A stretch of DNA of 64,000 nt from Gemmatimonadota bacterium (GTDB taxonomy: Bacteria > Gemmatimonadota > Gemmatimonadetes > Longimicrobiales > Gaopeijiaceae). Below are positions 33,742 through 44,354 of the stretch, in pieces. Positions within the stretch are counted from its first letter, which is position 1; each line of letters opens with the position of its first letter. The position numbers were made by a program, and so were the translations under genes. The stretch is taken from assembly GCA_028873595.1 (NCBI GenBank), contig JAPPOV010000037.1:62001-126000 (forward strand), given 5' to 3'. The notes below the pieces were generated by a model. That model was not told where the DNA came from, searched no databases, and saw only the letters and a program-made list of their open reading frames with translations.

Positions 33742-34436
33742 GTGGAAAGAAGCTTCCGATTCTGAGGCAAGAGGACGTAGACGGATTTCTGCCCATGGAC
33801 CGTCGGCAGGCGCTCAAGGTCATGGCGATTGCGGCCGCGGCACCTACCGTGGCGTCATGCACGCCGGAGGCCGGATCGGATCTCGCTGAACTCCCGGCGC
33901 CAGCGAGTAACCCCAAGGCCGCAGGCACGGCATGGGATCCAGACCTCGTGTCTCCGACAGTTCCGTGGGAGCGCTCGCTTACGGCCGACGAATTGGAATC
34001 CCTGGCGGCGCTATGTGACGTCATCATCCCTGCAGATGATCGATCTTCGTCGGCGAGTCAGGTTGGGGCCCATGACTTCATCGACGAATGGGTCAGTGCT
34101 CCCTACGACGGAAATGCGAACGATCAGGTGCTGGTGCGCGGTGGCCTCGTATGGCTCGACCGCGAAGCGGCACAGCGTTTTGGTGACGGGGTGCGCTTCA
34201 GAGGGCTGAGCCCCGAACAGCAGCATGCGATCTGCGACGATATCTGCTACGCACCCAATGCACCGGACGGATACGAAGCTGCAGCCCGGTTCTTCGATCG
34301 TGTCCGCGATCTGACGTCGACGGCTTTCTGGACGACGCAGGTTGGCATGGACGATTTGGAGTACGTCGGCAACGTCCCACTTGCACAGTGGGATCCACCG
34401 CCACCCGAAGTCCTGCGACACCTGGGGCTCGCATAA
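33738..34436 (+). CDS. Gluconate 2-dehydrogenase subunit 3-like Tat partner
   Basis: 232 aa. MDRRQALKVMAIAAAAPTVASC near residues 15-36 combines a twin-arginine motif with a lipobox-like Cys. The mature part is the subunit-3 (hitch-hiker) fold: LESLAALCDVIIPADD, a conserved DFIDEWVS segment and FFDRVRDLTSTAFWTT. It is expected to bind the GMC flavoprotein, carry it through the Tat pore and hold it at the membrane. The ATG overlaps the GMC stop by 4 bases, matching the obligate pairing known for these subunits. Confidence 0.87.
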   Translation: MSGKKLPILRQEDVDGFLPMDRRQALKVMAIAAAAPTVASCTPEAGSDLAELPAPASNPKAAGTAWDPDLVSPTVPWERSLTADELESLAALCDVIIPADDRSSSASQVGAHDFIDEWVSAPYDGNANDQVLVRGGLVWLDREAAQRFGDGVRFRGLSPEQQHAICDDICYAPNAPDGYEAAARFFDRVRDLTSTAFWTTQVGMDDLEYVGNVPLAQWDPPPPEVLRHLGLA

Positions 34437-34505
34437 CGCACTTGAAGTACGAGGATCCGAGCCAGTCCTGGAACTCGGTCCTGATCACACCAGCATCGAT
34501 ACGTC

Positions 34506-35969
34506 ATGACAGAAACGGCAACGGAACGCGTCAACGCTGATCGTCTTTTTCTGGGGAGCTGTGTAGCGCTCATCGCCACGTCGGTTGCATTCGCGACGGT
34601 GGGGGCGGTGATGCTCGCACTCAAGCGGGAGTTCGTGCTCACCAATGAGGAGGTGGGCTGGATCGGGGGTGCGGCGCTTTGGGGCTTTGCGGTCTCTCAG
34701 CTCGCGTTCGCTCCGCTCGCTGATTCCCTGGGGATGAAGACGCTGCTGCGCTTCTCCTTCCTGGGTCATCTCCTGGGCTCAGTTACGATGATCTTTGCGA
34801 GTGGTTTCACGACCCTCTTCGTCGGCGCACTGATCATCGCCATGGCGAACGGTCTGGTCGAAGCTGCGTGTAACCCGCTTGTCGCCGCACTCTTTCCGGA
34901 CAACAAGACCGTCAAGCTGAACCAGTTCCACGTATGGTTTCCCGGTGGGGTGGTCCTTGGAGGCCTCGCCGCGTTCGCCCTCGATGCGGTCGGCATCACG
35001 GGCTGGCAGATCAAGATCGGGCTCATCCTCGTTCCCACGCTCGCGTATGGAGCCTTGCTCCTGAGGGAGACGTTTCCACCCACCGAAGGGGTGGAGGCCG
35101 GAGTGAGCATGGGGGAGATGTTCAGCGCCGCATTCACGACCCCATTGATGTGGGTGATGCTGATCGCCATGGCGATGACTGCGTCGGTGGAACTCGGTCC
35201 GAATCGCTGGGTGCCCGCGGTACTCGAGGCGGGGGGTGTGGCAGGGATCCTCGTCCTTGTCTGGATCAACGGGTTGATGGCGATCATGCGTTATCGCGCG
35301 GGAGATGTCGTGCATCGGGCGTCGCCGACCGGGCTGCTTCTTGCGTCTGCGGTGATTTCCGGAGTAGGGCTCCTTGCCCTCAGCTACGCCAGCGGCATCG
35401 CAATGACCTTCATGGCTGCGACGATCTTCGCACTGGGGGTTTGCTATTTCTGGCCCACAATGCTTGGTGTCGTGTCTGAGCGCGTACCTCGTTCGGGTGC
35501 GCTCGGCCTCGGACTGATGGGTACGGTCGGGATGGCCACGGTAGGGCTGATTACGTCACCCCAGATGGGTGCGATCGCGGACAGGTACGCTCATGCTGAG
35601 CTCCCTGTGGCGGAGACCGTACAGCTCTTTCAGCGGGCAGAACGCACACTGGCCACACGTACCGATTCGGATTCTCAGGCCGCCGCGGAGGCAATTTCGG
35701 TCGTGGCCCGGGCATGGCAGGCAGAGGACGTGCTGCCCTCTCCAGAGACCGCGAATGCGTTGCGAACGCTGATCGCGTCGGACGTGGATGCCGCACTCGT
35801 CAGTGAGGCTCAGGCGATCCTCGGTCCGGCCGACAACTACGGGGGGAAGATCTCGTTCCGCTGGGTCGTGCCACTGTGCGGCGTGCTGACACTTGTATTC
35901 GCTGGGCTCTACATGCGTGACCGAAGGGCCGGGGGATACCGGGTGGAGAGTATCGGGGCCAGCGCGTGA
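34506..35969 (+). CDS. MFS transporter of the sugar operon
   Basis: 487 aa, about 12 membrane segments, resembling FucP/NarK-like sugar facilitators: FVLTNEEVGWIGGAALWGFA at the start, NGLVEAACNPLVAALFPDNKT in the first half, and an FWPTMLGVVSERVP segment in the second. A roughly 80-residue hydrophilic insertion (about residues 365-450, rich in Ala, Glu and Thr) lies before the last helix and is unusual. Its place between the exported enzymes and the cytoplasmic Gfo/isomerase pair suggests that it imports their product. The 69-base gap before it is the only real spacing in the operon. Confidence 0.85.
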   Translation: MTETATERVNADRLFLGSCVALIATSVAFATVGAVMLALKREFVLTNEEVGWIGGAALWGFAVSQLAFAPLADSLGMKTLLRFSFLGHLLGSVTMIFASGFTTLFVGALIIAMANGLVEAACNPLVAALFPDNKTVKLNQFHVWFPGGVVLGGLAAFALDAVGITGWQIKIGLILVPTLAYGALLLRETFPPTEGVEAGVSMGEMFSAAFTTPLMWVMLIAMAMTASVELGPNRWVPAVLEAGGVAGILVLVWINGLMAIMRYRAGDVVHRASPTGLLLASAVISGVGLLALSYASGIAMTFMAATIFALGVCYFWPTMLGVVSERVPRSGALGLGLMGTVGMATVGLITSPQMGAIADRYAHAELPVAETVQLFQRAERTLATRTDSDSQAAAEAISVVARAWQAEDVLPSPETANALRTLIASDVDAALVSEAQAILGPADNYGGKISFRWVVPLCGVLTLVFAGLYMRDRRAGGYRVESIGASA

Positions 35970-37156
35970 GACCGATCCGATATGGGATGGTTGGAGGAGG
36001 CCCCGGTGCGTTTATCGGGGCGGTCCACCGAATGGCCGCTGCACTCGACGGATCCTACGAGCTCGTGGCCGGTGCATTTTCGTCCGACGTTTCGAAGTCC
36101 CGTCAGACGGGGGAGGAACTCGCGCTCGACCCTGGCCGGGTCTATGAGACGTTCAGGGACATGGCGTCCGCAGAAGCCTCGCGAGACGACGGGATCGACG
36201 TCGCAGTCATCGTTACACCCAACCACCTGCACTATCCCGCAGCCCGCGCGTTCCTGGAGGCGGGTATCCACGTCATCTGTGACAAGCCGTTGGTGACGAC
36301 TACGGACGACGCAGATGCATTGTGTGCCCTGGCGTCGCAGAGGGGTCTCGTTTTTGCGGTGACGTACAACTACACCGGGTACCCGATGGTGAAAGAGGCC
36401 CGGGATCGTATCAGGGCCGGGGAACTGGGGGAGCTTCGAAAGGTTGTCGTAGAGTACTCACAGGGGTGGCTTCGCACCCTGCTGGAGGCAGAAGGCCAAA
36501 AACAGGCCGAGTGGCGCGGCGACCCGAATCGTGCGGGTTTGTCGTCCGCACTCGGCGACATCGGTACGCATGCGTACAACCTTCTGCACTACGTGACGGG
36601 ACTGGAGGCGCGGCGACTCTTCGCTGACCTGGGGACCGTAGTGGAAGGACGCGCTATGGAAGACGACGCGACCGTGCTTCTGGATCTGGATGGTGATGTT
36701 CGCGGAGTGATGATCGTCTCACAGATCGCGACCGGGGAGCGCAACCATCTGCGTCTGAGGGTCTACGGTTCGGAGAAAGCGCTCGATTGGTGTCAGGAGG
36801 ATCCCAACCGCTTGCGGATTCTGGCACCCGACGGAGCTGAGACGGTGCTGTTCCGCGGCGGTGAAGTGGGTGGCGCAGCCGATGCCGCGACCCGACTCCC
36901 TGGAGGGCACCCGGAAGGCTTCATCGAAGCATTCGCGAATATCTATCGAGGCGCGGCCGAAGCCATTCGACGAAACTCCAGCACGTTCGGTGGGTGCAGC
37001 GACCCAGGTGAGGGTGATCCCAGAGCCGTCGACTTTCCAACGGTAGAGGACGGCATGCTCGGCGTATACTTCGTGCACCGTGCGATCCAGAGCAGTTTGG
37101 CCGAGCGCTGGATCGACATGAACGACGGATCGGCCAAACCGGATACGACGGCATGA
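35966..37156 (+). CDS. Cytoplasmic Gfo/Idh/MocA family oxidoreductase
   Basis: 396 aa with no signal peptide. Rossmann motif [19 protein letters not shown] near residue 7, [17 protein letters not shown], the catalytic CDKPLV Lys-Pro, and the substrate helix [21 protein letters not shown] with conserved Asp and His. It probably reduces or oxidises a keto-sugar or inositol-type intermediate brought in by the preceding MFS protein. The GTG start overlaps the MFS stop by 4 bases, and the stop overlaps the next gene. It is the cytoplasmic counterpart of the exported dehydrogenase at the start of the operon. Confidence 0.9.
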
Positions 37157-38181
37157 GCATCTGGAGTGATCGAGCCGGGCACCCACGCCCTGTCACCCTC
37201 TTCACCGGGCAGTGGGCGGATCTCCCACTCGCGGATCTCGCAGAAAAAGCCGCGGCCTGGGGCTACGACGGCCTCGAGCTGGCGTGTTGGGGAGATCACT
37301 TCGATGTGAGACGTGCGGCTTCGGAGTCCGATTATTGTGTTGAGCGGCGCGAGCTGCTGAACTCATACGGCCTCGACGTCTATGCGGTCAGCAACCACCT
37401 CGTCGGGCAGGCGGTTTGTGACCGGATCGATGAGCGGCACCGGTCGATCCTCCCCGAGCACGTATGGGGTGATGGAGATGGGGAGGGTGTGCGTAGCCGC
37501 GCCGCGAAGGAAATGGAGTTGACGGCTCGCGCCGCAGCGAACCTGGGTGTTCCGGTCGTGAACGGGTTTACCGGAAGCTCCATATGGCCACTCTTGTACT
37601 CGTTCCCTCCGGTTCCGGAAGCCTGGGTCGAGGAAGGGTTTGCCGACTTTGCTCGGAGGTGGAATCCCATTCTGGATGTCTTCGACGAGGTCGGCGTTCG
37701 CTTCGCGCTCGAGGTACATCCGACCGAGATCGCCTTCGACCACGTGACTGCGGAACGAGCGCTTGACGCCCTGGGGCATCGTGATGCGTTCGGGTTCAAC
37801 TACGACCCCAGTCATCTGGCGTATCAGGGTGTCGACTGCGTGGACTTCATTCACCGTTTTGGCGACCGGATCTATCACGCACACATGAAGGATGTGTGGT
37901 GGGCCGACAGGCCGGGCCCCTCAGGCGTGTTCGGCGGTCACCTGCCGTTCGGCCATCGAGACCGCAACTGGGACTTTCGAAGCCTCGGGCGCGGTCACGT
38001 TCCGTTCGAGGAGGTGGTTCGAGCACTGACCCGAGCAGGATACGAAGGTCCGATGTCCGTGGAATGGGAAGATTCAGGCATGGACCGAGAGCATGGCGCG
38101 GAGGAGGCATGCGCCTTCGTGCGCGCATTGGATTTTCCGGCCTCCGACACAGCGTTTGACGCAGCCTTCTCCGAGGAGTAG
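37153..38181 (+). CDS. Sugar phosphate isomerase/epimerase (TIM barrel)
   Basis: 342-aa cytoplasmic AP-endonuclease-2-like barrel. Metal-site strands are visible as [11 protein letters not shown] (Glu), [10 protein letters not shown] (Asp/His), [10 protein letters not shown] (His) and [12 protein letters not shown] (Glu). Length and motifs fit the group that includes sugar-acid or inosose isomerases and 3-keto-sugar processing enzymes. It overlaps the Gfo/Idh gene by 4 bases and closes the operon. Specific substrate unknown. Confidence 0.88.
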
Positions 38182-38204
38182 CACCCCGCCGGACGGTCGC
38201 CGCG

Positions 38205-39137
38205 TCAGTTTGCGTCGTCGGGAACGCGCAGGCTGTCGCGGAAGTCCGAGAAGGAAGGCGGACTGACGATGCCGGCATCGCGCCAACGTTCCCTGTGCGC
38301 GTCTGCTCCAGCTCCTCCGATGACGACCTTCACGCTCAGCGGAAGACGTCGACGGATCTCCAGAACTTCCTGAACACCCGTCGCATCCAGTCGAGGATGT
38401 ACTGCCGAGAGTGCGACCATGCGAGCGCCTAACTTGTCAGCTGCCCGGGCAATCTCGGAGGCGGGGAGATCCGGACCCATGAACCGGACGCGCCAACCTT
38501 CATACGCGGCGACAACTCCGGCGAGGAGTGCGCCGAACTCGTGCCGCTGTCCCGCGGGCGTCCCAGTGAGCGCCAGAGGAGCGTTCGTGTCCTTTTGGTT
38601 TGTCGACGACATCCACTCGAGAAAGCGCCGAATGGCAACCGAGGCAATGTGCTCGGTGCTCGGTCCGAGTCGACCAGCTTGCCAGCCGCGTCCAATCTCC
38701 TGGAGAAGCGGAACCATGAGCCCCTCGACGAGCTCGTGCGGGCGCAGTTCGACCGCGCAGCGCATGAAGAACTGTTCGAGATCGTCCGTCCGCATCTGAT
38801 CGATGAGGTCCAGCGCCGTCTTTACGCGCTCCACGTCCGGAGCGACGAAATCCCCGATCGGGTGAATCGGGGTCTCGCGATCCTCGTCGATCAAGGCTTC
38901 GAGCTGGGGCAGATCCAGTTCCGCGATCAAACCGATGCTTCGTCCGCCATCGACCGCCGTTGCGAGCAGCTGAAGACGCCGGATGTCATCGTCCGAGTAG
39001 AGGCGTTGACCACCCTCACTGCGACGCGGCGTCACCACACCGTATCGGCGCTCCCAAGCCCGCAGCACGGGTGTGGAAAGGCCGGTCCGCTGCGCGACGA
39101 CTCGAATCGGGTGCCGGGACTCAGTTGATTCAGGCAT
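38205..39137 (-). CDS. MerR-family regulator with B12-binding photoreceptor domain (CarH/LitR-like)
   Basis: 310 aa. Residues 9-75 are a MerR winged helix (RVVAQRTGLSTPVLRAWERRYG, then TPRRSEGGQRLYSDDDIRRL). Residues 100-175 form a four-helix cap carrying the W-x9-EH pattern (Trp152, Glu162, His163) that contacts adenosylcobalamin in CarH, and His199 in GQRHEFG matches the lower axial His. The Rossmann-like cobalamin fold continues to about residue 285. CarH/LitR proteins repress DNA in the dark with adenosylcobalamin and let go in light. All four diagnostic residues are present, so light sensing is likely but untested. Convergent with the sugar operon; its own promoter overlaps repeated boxes. 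Confidence 0.88.
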   Translation of the reverse strand: MPESTESRHPIRVVAQRTGLSTPVLRAWERRYGVVTPRRSEGGQRLYSDDDIRRLQLLATAVDGGRSIGLIAELDLPQLEALIDEDRETPIHPIGDFVAPDVERVKTALDLIDQMRTDDLEQFFMRCAVELRPHELVEGLMVPLLQEIGRGWQAGRLGPSTEHIASVAIRRFLEWMSSTNQKDTNAPLALTGTPAGQRHEFGALLAGVVAAYEGWRVRFMGPDLPASEIARAADKLGARMVALSAVHPRLDATGVQEVLEIRRRLPLSVKVVIGGAGADAHRERWRDAGIVSPPSFSDFRDSLRVPDDAN

Positions 39138-39142
39138 GCATC

Positions 39143-39171
39143 ATTCTACCCACATGTCCAATATATGTCAA
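39143..39171 (-). promoter_or_regulatory. Near-consensus sigma-70 promoter of the MerR/B12 regulator, leaderless
   Basis: On the minus strand, TTGACA (39171-39166), a 17-base spacer and TAGAAT (39148-39143). Only 5 bases separate the -10 box from the ATG at 39137, so transcription should begin at the start codon and no ribosome-binding site can exist. Confidence 0.7.
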
Positions 39172-39218
39172 ATAGAAGAGGTGAACAGATAGTTGACAGT
39201 AGGCGCTAGGATTTGACT
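39153..39218. promoter_or_regulatory. Repeated TTGACA-like boxes, candidate operator of the B12 regulator
   Basis: The AT-rich gap holds ATGTCCA and ATGTCAA as direct repeats about 11 bases apart (39154-39160 and 39165-39171), and the inverted forms TTGACAG (39193-39199) and TTGACTA (39213-39219). The first pair overlaps the regulator's promoter. This arrangement of near-identical boxes spaced by about one helical turn fits oligomeric MerR/CarH operators; binding is inferred. Confidence 0.45.
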
Positions 39219-39234
39219 ATCAATTATACAAAAC

Positions 39235-39453
39235 ATGAACATTATGGTGTTCCATGTTGATGAGTGTGTGCGACTGTTGCCACCGCTGCACGTGCCCCGG
39301 CGAATGTCGGCGTTTCAGGACGCCGAGTTCGTCGCCGTGCCGAGTCAGCAGGCGAATGTCGTCTCTACGGACATCGAGGCGTCCAGCGGCATCATGCACG
39401 TCATCGATCGGGTGATTCTGCCGGAGATGCAGGCTCTCCGAACTGCTCTCTGA
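39235..39453 (+). pseudogene. Remnant of a fasciclin (FAS1) domain gene
   Basis: A 72-residue open frame whose last 35 residues read ANVVSTDIEASSGIMHVID followed by RVILP, which is the hallmark C-terminal strand-helix of FAS1 domains (normally ...DIxASNGVIHVIDxVLLP). The preceding 35 residues do not look like the rest of a FAS1 domain, and a whole domain needs about 130 residues with a secretion signal. So this is most likely the 3' scar of a deleted fasciclin gene that once stood directly downstream of the CarH-type operator. It could instead be a short expressed peptide, but no ribosome-binding site is evident before ATG 39235. Confidence 0.6.
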
Positions 39454-39522
39454 TGAGAGAAGTGATGGATGCAGGGTAGTACGCGTGCCCCCCGGAGCCT
39501 GACTACTCCGGACGCACGTTGC

Positions 39523-39993
39523 TCACTGGCTGCTGTGCTCGATGATACCCGCCGCGGCCAGCACGGCCTGAAGAGAGTCGGTGAGCACGTTGTGCTCCTC
39601 GATCGTCGTGCGACATGCGGTCTCTGCTGTGCGGAGGCGATGCTCTCGCCCCTCCCAAACGCCGACGGAGTCATTGTACTCGTCGAAGACCGACAGATAG
39701 GCGTCATAATTCTGCACCGGGACCCCGCGGTCCGGGACGGTTTCATAGCCGTCGACGACTCGTTTGAGTGAGTCGATCGCAACGCCGAGTTCGAGGAGGG
39801 CGGCCTGGCTGGTCTGAAGCGACCCACGACACCGGTCTGCTGCGACACGGGAGCGATAGATCTCTTCTCGAAGGCCGTTGATCCGGTCCTCGGTGTGCTG
39901 GCGTTCGAGGATCCGATCGACACTCAAGAAGACGAGGGATCCCGCAACGATGACCGTCACGATCGCCAGCCCATTTCGAATCATGGGATTCAT
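39523..39993 (-). CDS. Small membrane-anchored coiled-coil protein of unknown function
   Basis: 156 aa. One N-terminal transmembrane helix (GLAIVTVIVAGSLVFLSVD, about residues 8-26), then an almost wholly helical, charged periplasmic part predicted to form coiled coils, with Cys at the ARC/ETAC positions. The start ATG at 39993 lies 2 bases after the multicopper oxidase stop, so the two are co-transcribed. No family recognised; a structural or partner role to the oxidase is only a guess. Confidence 0.65.
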   Translation of the reverse strand: MNPMIRNGLAIVTVIVAGSLVFLSVDRILERQHTEDRINGLREEIYRSRVAADRCRGSLQTSQAALLELGVAIDSLKRVVDGYETVPDRGVPVQNYDAYLSVFDEYNDSVGVWEGREHRLRTAETACRTTIEEHNVLTDSLQAVLAAAGIIEHSSQ

Positions 39994-39995
39994 GG

Positions 39996-41675
39996 TCAGT
40001 TCTCGGTTACCGTAAAGCCGAACATCATGCCGGCGTGGAGGTGCTCGGCAATGTGGCAGTGGATCATCCACTCGCCTGGGTTGGACATCTCGACGAGAAC
40101 GTCCATCGTGGACCCGACGGGTACGATGGCCGTGTCCTTCCACACCAGGTTCCGGTTCTCCACGTCGTCCATCGACAGCACGAGGAAGCGCTGCCCGTGG
40201 ATGTGGATCGGGTGGTTCATCGGATGGAAGGAATCCGGCGTGTTGTGGATGCGGATCTTGACGACGTCGCCCACGGTGAAGTCCCAGTCGATCTCACCGT
40301 TCTGGGCTCCCGTTGCGACGTCTTCGAGAATCCAGGTGACCTCTTCACCCGTCGACAGCCAGTTCATCATCGGCATGGCGTCGTTCCATTCCATGGGGGC
40401 GACGTACAACGTGTCGGCTTCCATGGAGAGAACGATCGACGGGTGCAGTCCCTGCACGCGCACGGTCGTTACGAGCTCGTGGTCCGCAGGCCGGCCGAAG
40501 TGCGGTCGGAAGGATTCGATGTCCACGACAACGTCTTCATGCTCACGAAGCGTGTCGAAGGCCTCACTCACCGCAGCTTCAGCCGCATCGTCGGACACGG
40601 TCACAATCGACAGCGTGTCCACCCGGGGGTAGAACTGACCCCGGAAGTGATTGACCGCCTGGATCGTATTCGCGATGACCACTTCGCCTGGCTCGTCGAA
40701 GCGCACGTCCACGACGTAGCGTTCGGCAGGGGCGATGACGACCGAGCCGACCCACTGCTCGCGTTCGAAGCGACTCACGTCCGAGGCGACGATCTTCAGC
40801 TTCGCGCCACCGAAGGTGACGTTGAAGGTGCGAGAGTTCGCGACGTTCGTCAGGTAGAATCGAACGACTTCACCGCGTTTGACTTCGAGACGATGGTCCG
40901 TTTCTCCATTGACCATCATCACATTGCCGAAACGACCCATAAGTGCGTGGGTGGGGGACTCTTCACCCCATGGCAGAGCGCCCTGATCGTCCATCAGAAT
41001 GTCGTCGAGGACGAAAACTTCTTCCCGGTGCGCTGGACCGTAGTAATCCGGGTCGGGAGATGTGACGAGGAGGTTTCCGAACAGGCCGAGGTCCTGCTGC
41101 ACGTCCTCGCGAACGTGCGGGTGATACCAATACATACCTGCATCCGGCACGTTGACTTCGTACAGGAAGCTCTCTCCTTGCTGGATCGCTTCCTGGGTCA
41201 CGCCCGGCACACCGTCGAATTGATTCTCGATCCGGATGCCATGCCAGTGGATCGTCGTCGGCATCTGGATTTCGTTCGTCACACGCACCATCACGGTGGC
41301 GTCCCTGGGAGCCTGGATGAGCGGACCGGGATATTGCCCGTTGTAGCCGAACATGATCATCTCGTGCCCATTGATCGTTCGCCGGACCATCGAGACCGAG
41401 ATGTCGAGCGTGTCCATGTCCGCCAGGGGCACGAGTTCGGACGGACGCGCCTCTGGCAACATCGCCGGATCCATGCCCATGCCGGGCATGAAGGGATCGA
41501 CGACCGGGAGCGCTCCCTCGAGGCCGGGAAGCATCGGCATGTTCATGTCCATGGGAACCATGCGCCAACCGCCACCCATGGTCATGCCGTGCATTTCGTG
41601 CTGTGCGCTTGAGGTGCCGGGGAGGGACAGGCTCGCCAGTATGGCCAAGCCGGCTGCAGTTCGAGCCCGGATCAT
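39996..41675 (-). CDS. Secreted multicopper oxidase, Met-rich N-terminus
   Basis: 559 aa with a Sec signal (GLAILASLSLPGTSSAQ). Residues 25-75 are very rich in Met and His (HEMHGMTMGG, MDMNMPMLPG, MPGMGMDPAM), typical of copper-handling proteins. All copper motifs are present: HWHG, WYHPH, HPMNHPIHIHG, and HCHIAEHLHAGMM with the type 1 Cys-style region's axial Met, so types 1, 2 and 3 copper sites look complete. It probably oxidises Cu(I), other metals or phenols in the periplasm, like CueO/CopA-type oxidases. The upstream gene (41728-42300) and downstream helical protein share its operon. Confidence 0.93.
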   Translation of the reverse strand: MIRARTAAGLAILASLSLPGTSSAQHEMHGMTMGGGWRMVPMDMNMPMLPGLEGALPVVDPFMPGMGMDPAMLPEARPSELVPLADMDTLDISVSMVRRTINGHEMIMFGYNGQYPGPLIQAPRDATVMVRVTNEIQMPTTIHWHGIRIENQFDGVPGVTQEAIQQGESFLYEVNVPDAGMYWYHPHVREDVQQDLGLFGNLLVTSPDPDYYGPAHREEVFVLDDILMDDQGALPWGEESPTHALMGRFGNVMMVNGETDHRLEVKRGEVVRFYLTNVANSRTFNVTFGGAKLKIVASDVSRFEREQWVGSVVIAPAERYVVDVRFDEPGEVVIANTIQAVNHFRGQFYPRVDTLSIVTVSDDAAEAAVSEAFDTLREHEDVVVDIESFRPHFGRPADHELVTTVRVQGLHPSIVLSMEADTLYVAPMEWNDAMPMMNWLSTGEEVTWILEDVATGAQNGEIDWDFTVGDVVKIRIHNTPDSFHPMNHPIHIHGQRFLVLSMDDVENRNLVWKDTAIVPVGSTMDVLVEMSNPGEWMIHCHIAEHLHAGMMFGFTVTEN

Positions 41676-41727
41676 GTGTCGTCTAGAGCGATGAAGGAGT
41701 GCGTGTGCTGCACGAGCAGCGAGAGCG

Positions 41728-42300
41728 CTAATTGCCGTATCCGTAGGCCGCGCAGTTCTCCTGCTGGAGCGCCCCGTGACCGACCATGGTGTGCATCATG
41801 CCGCTGCGGGACATCCCGCGCATGACGATGGGCCCCGTCCACAGTGCCTGGCTCGGGTCGTCTGCGGGCTCGAGCGTAATGACCACGATGTACTTGTTCC
41901 AGTCGACGCGGCCCGAGGCCTGGAGGTGTTCATCCAGGGCGCCGATGCGCTCGATTCGGTCGATCTCGGGCGTCGTGACCCAGGCGACCAGTTGGCCGTG
42001 GCGTGGCACCCTCATGCGGTCAAGCGAGACCTGGAGATCGTATGCGTAGCTGCCGTCGGCGGCGAGTTGTACCGAAAACGGCGAGTTGGCCGACACCGAA
42101 GCCTCCACCGTGCCCGTCGCGAGTCCGGTACCGGGAATGTTCTTCGTGGTGACCAGTTCGAACGCGTAATACGGCGGCCCTTCGGTGCACATGACGGCGG
42201 TCGATCTGGCCTTGGTCAGCACGCGCGTCTCGTCGTGGAGCGTCGGGTCGACGGGATCAGGGGCGCCGATTAGTGCCAAAAGGGCTAGAATCGGAATCAT
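41728..42300 (-). CDS. Secreted protein of unknown function in the copper-oxidase operon
   Basis: 190 aa. It begins with a short hydrophobic leader (MIPILALLALIGAP), probably a weak signal peptide, followed by a beta-rich domain with AFELVTTKNIPGTGLATGTVE and DRMRVPRHGQLVAWVTTPE. The C-terminal part is rich in Met, Gly and His (MRGMSRSGMMHTMVGHGAL) and ends with Cys, Tyr and Gly residues, suggesting metal contact. It is immediately upstream of the multicopper oxidase. No named family recognised; a role in copper delivery or sensing is plausible but inferred from composition and context only. Confidence 0.7.
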   Translation of the reverse strand: MIPILALLALIGAPDPVDPTLHDETRVLTKARSTAVMCTEGPPYYAFELVTTKNIPGTGLATGTVEASVSANSPFSVQLAADGSYAYDLQVSLDRMRVPRHGQLVAWVTTPEIDRIERIGALDEHLQASGRVDWNKYIVVITLEPADDPSQALWTGPIVMRGMSRSGMMHTMVGHGALQQENCAAYGYGN

Positions 42301-42305
42301 GTTCG

Positions 42306-42334
42306 AGCGTACATCTCGGGTTCGGTCTCGACAA
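42306..42334 (-). promoter_or_regulatory. Candidate leaderless promoter of the copper-oxidase operon
   Basis: Minus strand TTGTCG (42334-42329), 17-base spacer, TACGCT (42311-42306), then 5 bases to the ATG at 42300. The hexamers are only moderate matches, but the geometry equals that of the MerR/B12 promoter. Confidence 0.4.
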
Positions 42335-42366
42335 GGCGTGAAGAAGCCTACCACCGAGGAGGAACA

Positions 42367-42786
42367 ATGGTCCGAACCGTTATCGGCACGGTAGCCGGGC
42401 TCGCGGTCTTGGGTGTGGTCGTCACGCTGCTGCAGCGCGGGTCCTCGGTGATGTACCCGCTCCCACCCGGACTGGACCCGATGAATCCAGACGATGCGGC
42501 GGCGTTTGCCGAGCACGTCGCAACGATGCCCATTGGGGCGTGGCTCATGACGATGCTCTCCGAGGTCTCGGGTGCGGCGTGCGGTGCTCTGGTCGCGGGC
42601 TTCATCTCACGCGATGCGGTACGGGGTTCGTCAGGGGCGGTGGTGGGCCTGGCAACCCTCGGAAGCGTCATGAACTGGGTCGCGTTTCCTCACCCGATGT
42701 TGTTCATCGTCGCGCAGCTCGTCCTGTATCCGGTCGCTCTCGTCTCCGTGTGGACGTTTCTCGCTGGTCGATCCTCCGAAGCGTAG
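42367..42786 (+). CDS. Small integral membrane protein
   Basis: 139 aa with about four hydrophobic helices (VIGTVAGLAVLGVVVTLL; LMTMLSEVSGAACGALVAGFI; AVVGLATLGSVMNWV; MLFIVAQLVLYPVALVSVWTFL), in line with a small inner-membrane protein of unknown family. A strong GAGGAGGAAC ribosome-binding site precedes ATG 42367. It is divergent from the copper-oxidase operon, with only 66 bases between starts. Function unknown. Confidence 0.75.
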   Translation: MVRTVIGTVAGLAVLGVVVTLLQRGSSVMYPLPPGLDPMNPDDAAAFAEHVATMPIGAWLMTMLSEVSGAACGALVAGFISRDAVRGSSGAVVGLATLGSVMNWVAFPHPMLFIVAQLVLYPVALVSVWTFLAGRSSEA

Positions 42787-42918
42787 GCGTTCCTCGCGAT
42801 CGTGGTTCGAGTGACGCGAAGAGAGGTTGCGGTCGCACGCGGGTTGCGGTCTTCCAGATCAACTGAGGATTGGCCGCTGCACTGGTTGAGCCACGAACAT
42901 GTCGGGTGGAGACGTGAA

Positions 42919-42951
42919 ACGACCCGGACTTCAGCAGGAAGCCCGGGTCGT
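42919..42951 (-). terminator. Terminator hairpin after the LVIVD-repeat gene
   Basis: Arms ACGACCCGG (42919-42927) and CCGGGTCGT (42943-42951) pair perfectly, and inside them CTTC/GAAG adds 4 bp after one mismatch, with a 5-base loop. On the minus strand the stem runs into TTTCACG. It lies 48 bases past the stop at 42999. Confidence 0.65.
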
Positions 42952-42998
42952 CACGCACCTTTGTATCGGACGATCAACGCCAGCCGCTGAAGACCGGT

Positions 42999-44354
42999 CT
43001 AGCGGTCTTCCTCGCTCACGGGTCGCTTCACAACCGGGTTCTCCCAGTCCTGCGCGGATGAGATGTTCGGCTGTCCCCAATGTTCACCGTTCCAGCCCTG
43101 GAAGCCGTCCATCCTGAAGGTCCAGAATCCGGTCGACATGTCGCTGATGACGATCAGGCCGTCTTCGTTTCGGACGTCGACACCGAATGCGCCGTTGAAC
43201 ATGGCAGGGCGGCCCTCGACGGTCGGGCCGATGTAGGTGTCGTAATAACCGACGGTGACCGGGTTGTGCGGGTCCTGCAGGTTGAAGATCTGCAACCCAT
43301 CAAGGTAGCCGGAGACGAAGACGTACGGCCAGCGGACCTCATGGTTATGGACGAGGTTGCGCCAATCTGCGGTAAATGCCGAGATCGGTGAGCGGACGTT
43401 CATGGTCTGGCCTTCGAGCGCAGGCTGCAGATCGAAGATCCGCAGCGGCGCATACTGATACTCGGTCTCGGCGATCACGTACCGGCCGTCCGGGCTCGGC
43501 GTGAACGTGTGGCCGTAGCTGACACCGCTGACCCCGGTCAGCGTGATGCGCAGCTCGGGTGCTTCCAGGTTCGTAACGTCGTAGATGTAGTACCCGCCGG
43601 TTCCGCCACCATAGAAACGATCCTCACCCGTGTCGGGGTGGTAGCCGACGTAGAAGTCGTGGTAGCCACGACCGCTGCCACGTCCCATCGGGGATTCCGG
43701 GATCGGCACCATACCAACGCGAGCGTTCTCCAGGTCGCCTTCTACGATCATACCCAGGTCGAAGACGAGGGCCCCCGGTGCGTTGGCCGTGGTGAAGAGG
43801 TACACCCGGTCGTTCTGGTGCTTGTAGATGAAGATGTTATGGAACCCGCCTGGCATCTCCGGCTCACGGATACGTGCGACTTCGCGGACCGTTGACGCGT
43901 CAGGCAGACCCGTCACGTCGAGGATCACCGCTCCGAGGTCCGTATTCGGGCCGCCCTGGCCGAACTGGAGGGACTGCACCAGGTAGTAGCGGTCGTCCCA
44001 CTTGAAATGCTTCACGTCCATGCCACCGGTGCGCTGGTGGAGATCCTGATTCTCGATTCTCCACTCGTAGAGGAGCTCGGGGTTCTCCGGATCTTCCAGG
44101 CTGATGATGTCGGTGCCCTTCGGCCCCTCCCAACCGTAGACCATGCGGGAGATGTACGCGAAGGGACGGTCCATCTCCTGTTCGAGGTCCATGTCGGCCA
44201 CAGAAAGCTGCGGACCGAGAGGTAGATGTCCGAGCACCTCGATGTTGTCGCTCCCGCGGTTCAGTGGGCTCCACGGGACCTGCTGGGCCGCCAGCGGCGC
44301 GGCAACGGTGAGCGCCAGAGTTGCGAGGAGTGGTGTACGCGCGTTCTTCATCAT
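42999..44354 (-). CDS. Secreted LVIVD-repeat beta-propeller protein
   Basis: 451 aa with a Sec signal (MMKNARTPLLATLALTVAAPLAAQ). The mature protein is made of propeller blades with the LVIVD-type cores, for example GTDIISLEDPENPELLYEW, GAVILDVTGLPDAS, GYYIYDVTNLEAPELR and GLQIFNLQDPHNPVTVGYY, plus conserved His/Trp segments (GGFHNIFIYKHQ, WRNLVHNHEVRWPYVFVSG). Such proteins are common in secretomes of this lineage; ligand or enzymatic role unknown. A GAAGAGGTCG ribosome-binding site lies just before ATG 44354. Flanked by hairpin terminators on both sides, so probably a single-gene unit. Confidence 0.85.
   Translation of the reverse strand: MMKNARTPLLATLALTVAAPLAAQQVPWSPLNRGSDNIEVLGHLPLGPQLSVADMDLEQEMDRPFAYISRMVYGWEGPKGTDIISLEDPENPELLYEWRIENQDLHQRTGGMDVKHFKWDDRYYLVQSLQFGQGGPNTDLGAVILDVTGLPDASTVREVARIREPEMPGGFHNIFIYKHQNDRVYLFTTANAPGALVFDLGMIVEGDLENARVGMVPIPESPMGRGSGRGYHDFYVGYHPDTGEDRFYGGGTGGYYIYDVTNLEAPELRITLTGVSGVSYGHTFTPSPDGRYVIAETEYQYAPLRIFDLQPALEGQTMNVRSPISAFTADWRNLVHNHEVRWPYVFVSGYLDGLQIFNLQDPHNPVTVGYYDTYIGPTVEGRPAMFNGAFGVDVRNEDGLIVISDMSTGFWTFRMDGFQGWNGEHWGQPNISSAQDWENPVVKRPVSEEDR

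Follow-up and report, generated by a model that had tools for sequence, protein, structure and literature searches.

The window, a 64,000-nucleotide stretch of genomic DNA from a Gemmatimonadota bacterium, carries a carH-type gene whose upstream region faces the remains of a divergent gene for a FAS1 (fasciclin) protein. The AT-rich gap recorded in the preliminary description has, over 39138-39235, a GC content of 36.7%, compared with 63.1% for the whole window. The features of the locus are as follows, with amino acid positions referring to the carH product.

38205..39137, minus strand: carH-type gene, encoding 310 aa with a MerR HTH and two cobalamin domains
aa 11-74: MerR HTH (MerR_1, PF13411; Pfam, 54 bits)
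aa 110-174: four-helix cobalamin domain (B12-binding_2; Pfam), which holds W152, E162 and H163
aa 190-290: Rossmann cobalamin domain (B12-binding; Pfam), which holds H199
39143..39171, minus strand: carH promoter, TTGACA-17-TAGAAT, with its -10 end 5 nt from the ATG; predicted to be leaderless
39155..39171, minus strand: predicted operator pair TTGACA-TATAT-TGGACA, which includes the carH -35
39182..39198, plus strand: predicted operator pair TGAACA-GATAG-TTGACA, oriented toward FAS1, whose -35 is probably the TTGACA of this pair
39225..39241, plus strand: predicted third operator pair TATACA-AAACA-TGAACA, at a position kept in several genus members
39235..39453, plus strand: FAS1 pseudogene, divergent from carH, with its middle deleted, its frame broken and its stop codon lost

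The residues previously picked out as those of a B12-dependent light sensor, W152, E162 and H163 in a W-x9-EH arrangement together with H199, lie at exactly these positions in the 310-aa translation. The MerR HTH displays the RxWERRY recognition helix (RAWERRY, aa 26-32), and the protein contains all four motifs, GxxW (G149-W152), EH (E162-H163), GxxH (G196-H199) and GxxxP (G221-P225), of the experimentally validated signature of light-responsive cobalamin domains (PMC11796333). Within an alignment of 25 homologues W152, E162, H199, G221 and P225 are invariant, and H163 is nearly so. The closest solved structures are those of Thermus CarH/LitR (3whp, E 1.5e-29; 5c8d, E 2.1e-29), and TtCarH is also the top structural match of an AlphaFold model of the 310-aa protein built from 25 homologues (pLDDT 87.9). 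The B12 motif D/E-x-H-x2-G-x41-S-x-T/V-x22-27-GG is represented by H199, G202, S244, V246 and G274-G275, all correctly spaced, with Gln197 at the D/E site. This residue and Gln153, which occupies the position of TtCarH His132 (the residue after the Trp) and varies among relatives, are two deviations that count against the CarH reading. Also counted against it is the score for the NCBI equivalog NF052513 (TransRegCarH), which at 126.8 bits does not reach the cut-off of 400, a naming threshold for one narrow equivalog rather than a functional feature. The equivalence of His132 and Gln153 follows TtCarH numbering, the key residues of which are consistent with the HMMER alignment. A PduO-type adenosyltransferase gene was found in the same genome, and thus AdoCbl can be made from cobalamin.

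His132 is the upper ligand of the TtCarH light state, and the H132A variant hardly disassembles in the light, remaining mostly tetrameric (PMC10442372). It could be argued, from the replacement of this residue by Gln153 and from the example of Myxococcus CarA, which binds B12 yet is B12-independent (PMC9304148), that the protein represses FAS1 in the manner of CarH and binds B12 but is insensitive to light, acting either like CarA or as a sensor of AdoCbl level. It should be emphasized, however, that the Trp of W-x9-EH, missing in CarA, is present here, and that the residue at the His132 position varies among validated photoreceptors: CtMerR and SasPcob, with Arg and Gln, respectively, respond to light without the His (PMC11796333). 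The light-insensitive repressor is thus an unlikely explanation. Both CtMerR and SasPcob resemble the window protein in having the four-motif signature without the bis-His ligand, and SasPcob shares its Gln, although SasPcob is a photocobilin that also binds biliverdin and is not a MerR regulator (PMC11796333). As Gln replaces the His, the light state of a photoreceptor of the CarH type at this locus would not be bis-His, and the route would be that of the validated photoreceptors without this residue.

The TTGACA-17-TAGAAT promoter that had been placed 5 bases from the ATG was confirmed on the minus strand, where it runs from 39171 to 39143. It matches the consensus at 11 of 12 positions and is the sole such site in the surrounding 600 bp (0.3 expected). 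When a mechanical promoter rule was applied to 18 carH upstream regions, the window included, the -10 ended 5-8 nt before an in-frame ATG in 15; the exceptions are L054 (10 nt), L047 (weak) and L035, which was mis-picked by the rule and has 5 nt by eye. Because this spacing is retained in so many of the regions, the leaderless arrangement appears to be a conserved feature, and the leaderless start proposed previously gains support from the relatives. No Rfam match to a riboswitch or other RNA was found within 34000-43000.

The preliminary description reported ATGTC(C/A)A direct repeats over this promoter and two inverted copies further out. The repeats are real and do overlap the promoter, but they are better defined as CarH-type 11-bp tandem TnnACA boxes, and the supposed inverted copies are actually four boxes that make up two pairs on the facing strand. 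Thermus CarH and the CarH of a second species, CarH-Bm, bind promoter-overlapping tandem 11-bp repeats, nnnnTnnACAn (PMC9304148). The pair at 39155-39171 on the minus strand contains the carH -35, consistent with the earlier view that an operator covers the promoter of carH itself. Such boxes are far beyond chance: the 18 carH upstream regions contain 30 same-strand TnnACA pairs at 11-bp spacing against 0.1 expected (the mean of 300 shuffles, the maximum being 2 pairs), and in a further set of named loci, wider in scope, 43 of 79 carH upstreams had a pair versus 4 of 1,465 control windows.

The 72-aa ORF opposite carH is a relic of the FAS1 pseudogene. The remnant, as had been noted, matches the fasciclin family (PF02469), and the match extends over profile positions 98-123 only (E 6.8e-5), so that the domain is incomplete. 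The pseudogene keeps the 5' part and a C-terminal 81 bp (39352-39432), which shares 81-83% identity with its two nearest intact counterparts. The suggestion that carH had lost a former target gene here is supported by this decay and by the presence of an intact divergent FAS1 gene in relatives. At the G012 locus, which is 88% identical, the FAS1 gene is wholly gone, and in the genus member G007 only a C-terminal FAS1 relic remains beside one of the carH genes (L089:5798-5983), so that the partner has been lost more than once.

The gene divergent from carH encodes, in most members of the genus and in several further genera, a secreted protein of ~160 aa with one FAS1 domain. Among the best 80 named carH matches there is a FAS1 gene at 12 loci, and all 13 FAS1 matches in these 80 loci are upstream of carH on the opposite strand; the paired loci derive from Gemmatimonadota, one Acidobacteriota and four gammaproteobacterial MAGs. 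Across 59 related genomes, 26 of 58 FAS1 genes are located <=3 kb from a carH, against about 0.13 expected, and FAS1 is present in 30 of the 40 genomes with carH versus 2 of the 19 without (p = 3e-6, a value that overstates the linkage as related genomes and loci are non-independent events). The assignment to the fasciclin family is firm for the intact genes, with Pfam PF02469 scores of 136 bits for the L064 gene and 220 bits for a copy on contig C51 of the window's own genome, and with a fold match to solved FAS1. The usual neighbour of carH in these bacteria, and on genomic evidence its most likely target, would thus be a secreted FAS1 gene, not a pigment gene. Two order-level relatives, G043 and G055 (loci L051 and L052), have two carH genes, one heading a crtI/lycopene-cyclase operon and the other beside FAS1 genes.

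A scan of the genome for operator boxes, as had been suggested, was carried out on the 3.2-Mb MAG with the pattern TnnACA-N5-TnnACA and, as control, the reversed pattern; it returned 21 operator pairs versus 15 for the control. More than one pair occurs at only two places, this locus (three) and C51:127009-127054 (two), which hold 5 of the 21. The C51 pairs are immediately upstream of the genome's only intact FAS1 gene, which encodes a two-domain protein. Fourteen of the other 16 pairs are inside long ORFs and were rejected as trans targets, since they look like chance occurrences when set beside the 15 of the reversed control; no ORF covers the pair at C15:28424, but there is no convincing target close to it. 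At C35:59486 (L203:1424-1560) a TnnACA(11)TnnACA(12)TnnACA triple lies between a DoxX_2 gene and a gene for an FAD amine oxidoreductase. The triple recurs in seven of nine genus members examined, an eighth (L218) has one exact pair, and the site is absent in G001, where identity to carH reaches 40% at best. This divergon is likely to be a further target. Thus, where the preliminary description left the targets unknown, the FAS1 family can now be named, with the C51 gene sharing the predicted operators, and the DoxX/FAD-oxidoreductase divergon can be added as a probable member.

These data also bear on the possibility that FAS1 is a frequent co-moved neighbour rather than a target, with carH regulating only itself and unknown genes. 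The spread of the pairing across phyla does suggest carH-FAS1 co-transfer, and most non-adjacent FAS1 genes are without an operator: in relatives pairs were found at only 4 of 19, a figure that counts against the FAS1-regulon reading and led us to reject general trans control of FAS1 paralogues. The operator pairs on the FAS1 side, however, have a fixed geometry, and two pairs occupy the promoter of the intact FAS1 gene that stands elsewhere in this genome, which makes mere co-movement quite improbable.

No carotenoid or photolyase gene adjoins carH, as stated previously; the carotenoid genes map to a different contig (C9), and PF00875 is absent genome-wide, for which reason a photolyase was rejected as a target. 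No 11-bp pair was found within 14 kb around the crt cluster on C9. Control of carotenoid synthesis by this CarH was rejected, as the cluster lacks pairs and comes with a non-MerR B12 regulator of its own. That regulator, encoded before the carotenoid genes (L034:5897-6844), joins a BldC/excisionase-type HTH to a CarH-type cobalamin domain with all four light-signature motifs (GQEW, EH, GNRH and GPDVP), making this HTH_17-B12 protein a candidate non-MerR B12 photoreceptor; similar cobalamin-domain proteins occur in many relatives. Although the existence of this second cobalamin-domain regulator allows that another MerR or B12 protein binds the operators instead of CarH, its HTH is of a different type, its own neighbourhood is without such pairs, carH promoters of dozens of species have the pairs, and the DoxX/FAD site is found in genus members with a carH orthologue and is missing from G001, whose only carH is a distant one, so that this explanation is highly improbable.

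The product of the gene at 38205-39137 is therefore probably a photoreceptor-repressor of class I LitR/CarH whose regulon centres on FAS1, a reading based on sequence comparison from which we infer AdoCbl binding, a response to light and the function of FAS1. In the dark, an AdoCbl-bound oligomer on the tandem repeats would cover the -35 region and block RNA polymerase at both carH and FAS1. Green or blue light would break the Co-C bond of AdoCbl, causing the oligomer to leave the DNA, and its release would induce carH (autoregulation), FAS1 (the C51 copy) and probably also the DoxX_2/FAD-oxidoreductase divergon. The secreted FAS1 surface protein may then protect against photo-oxidative stress by aggregation, shading or ligand binding.

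Compared with Thermus thermophilus CarH/LitR (5c8d, 3whp), the window protein has the same domain order, W-x9-EH pattern and lower-ligand His, and the same 11-bp TnnACA operators over the -35 in an autoregulatory position. It differs in the Gln that replaces His132, in a FAS1 partner instead of crt or photolyase genes, and in an upstream region with two operator faces, three pairs and a predicted leaderless promoter. The known role of CarH is to switch carotenoid genes. Myxobacterial CarH/CarA share with the window protein the cobalamin domain and 11-bp promoter repeats, and the window protein retains the Trp as CarH does (PMC9304148), but the myxobacterial targets are carotenoid genes.

The proposed role of FAS1 in photo-oxidative stress rests on analogy. 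The R. sphaeroides fasciclin RSP_1409 is induced by photo-oxidative stress (PMC7074977), and an Azospirillum FAS1 under RpoE-ChrR has been connected with photo-oxidative stress and flocculation, according to work cited in PMC10949492. Both resemble the present case in tying a bacterial FAS1 to this stress, and differ from it in being under sigma-factor control with no adjoining CarH. AstaP, a carotenoid-binding FAS1 of microalgae (PMC10147662), likewise has the FAS1 fold (8c18, 22iy), is secreted and is inducible by photo-oxidative stress in algae; it matches the FAS1 partner with a profile E of 2.5e-21 and, in structure, at 31-35% identity. SynAstaP, a cyanobacterial homologue induced by high light, does not bind zeaxanthin, and as no discriminating residue rule for carotenoid binding by FAS1 is given in that study, sequence cannot predict binding (PMC10147662). 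It is conceivable, if somewhat doubtful, that CarH-FAS1 is a widespread light-response module apart from carotenogenesis, in which the exported FAS1 binds carotenoid as a bacterial AstaP analogue or triggers shading aggregates. Such a module would, if real, be a direct circuit from photoreceptor to extracellular photoprotection.

No link of CarH/LitR or a B12 regulator to fasciclin was found in the open literature, subscription papers lying outside the search; CarH itself is already known, and the FAS1-centred CarH module is new as far as that literature shows. To our knowledge, bacterial fasciclins have been seen in photo-oxidative stress with no dedicated photoreceptor named. This study extends the known range of CarH partners by offering comparative evidence, over three phyla, that points to a secreted fasciclin as another standing partner. 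The pairing provides a simple and testable explanation for many orphan CarH genes of uncultured bacteria, and the predicted operators and the His132-less CarH are new material for mechanistic and optogenetic work.

Convergent with carH, the plus strand of the window at 34506-38181 bears, in one row, genes for an MFS transporter, a GFO/IDH/MocA oxidoreductase and an AP_endonuc_2-type TIM barrel. The row is conserved beside carH in genus members and resembles a module for sugar oxidation without a link to the light sensor.
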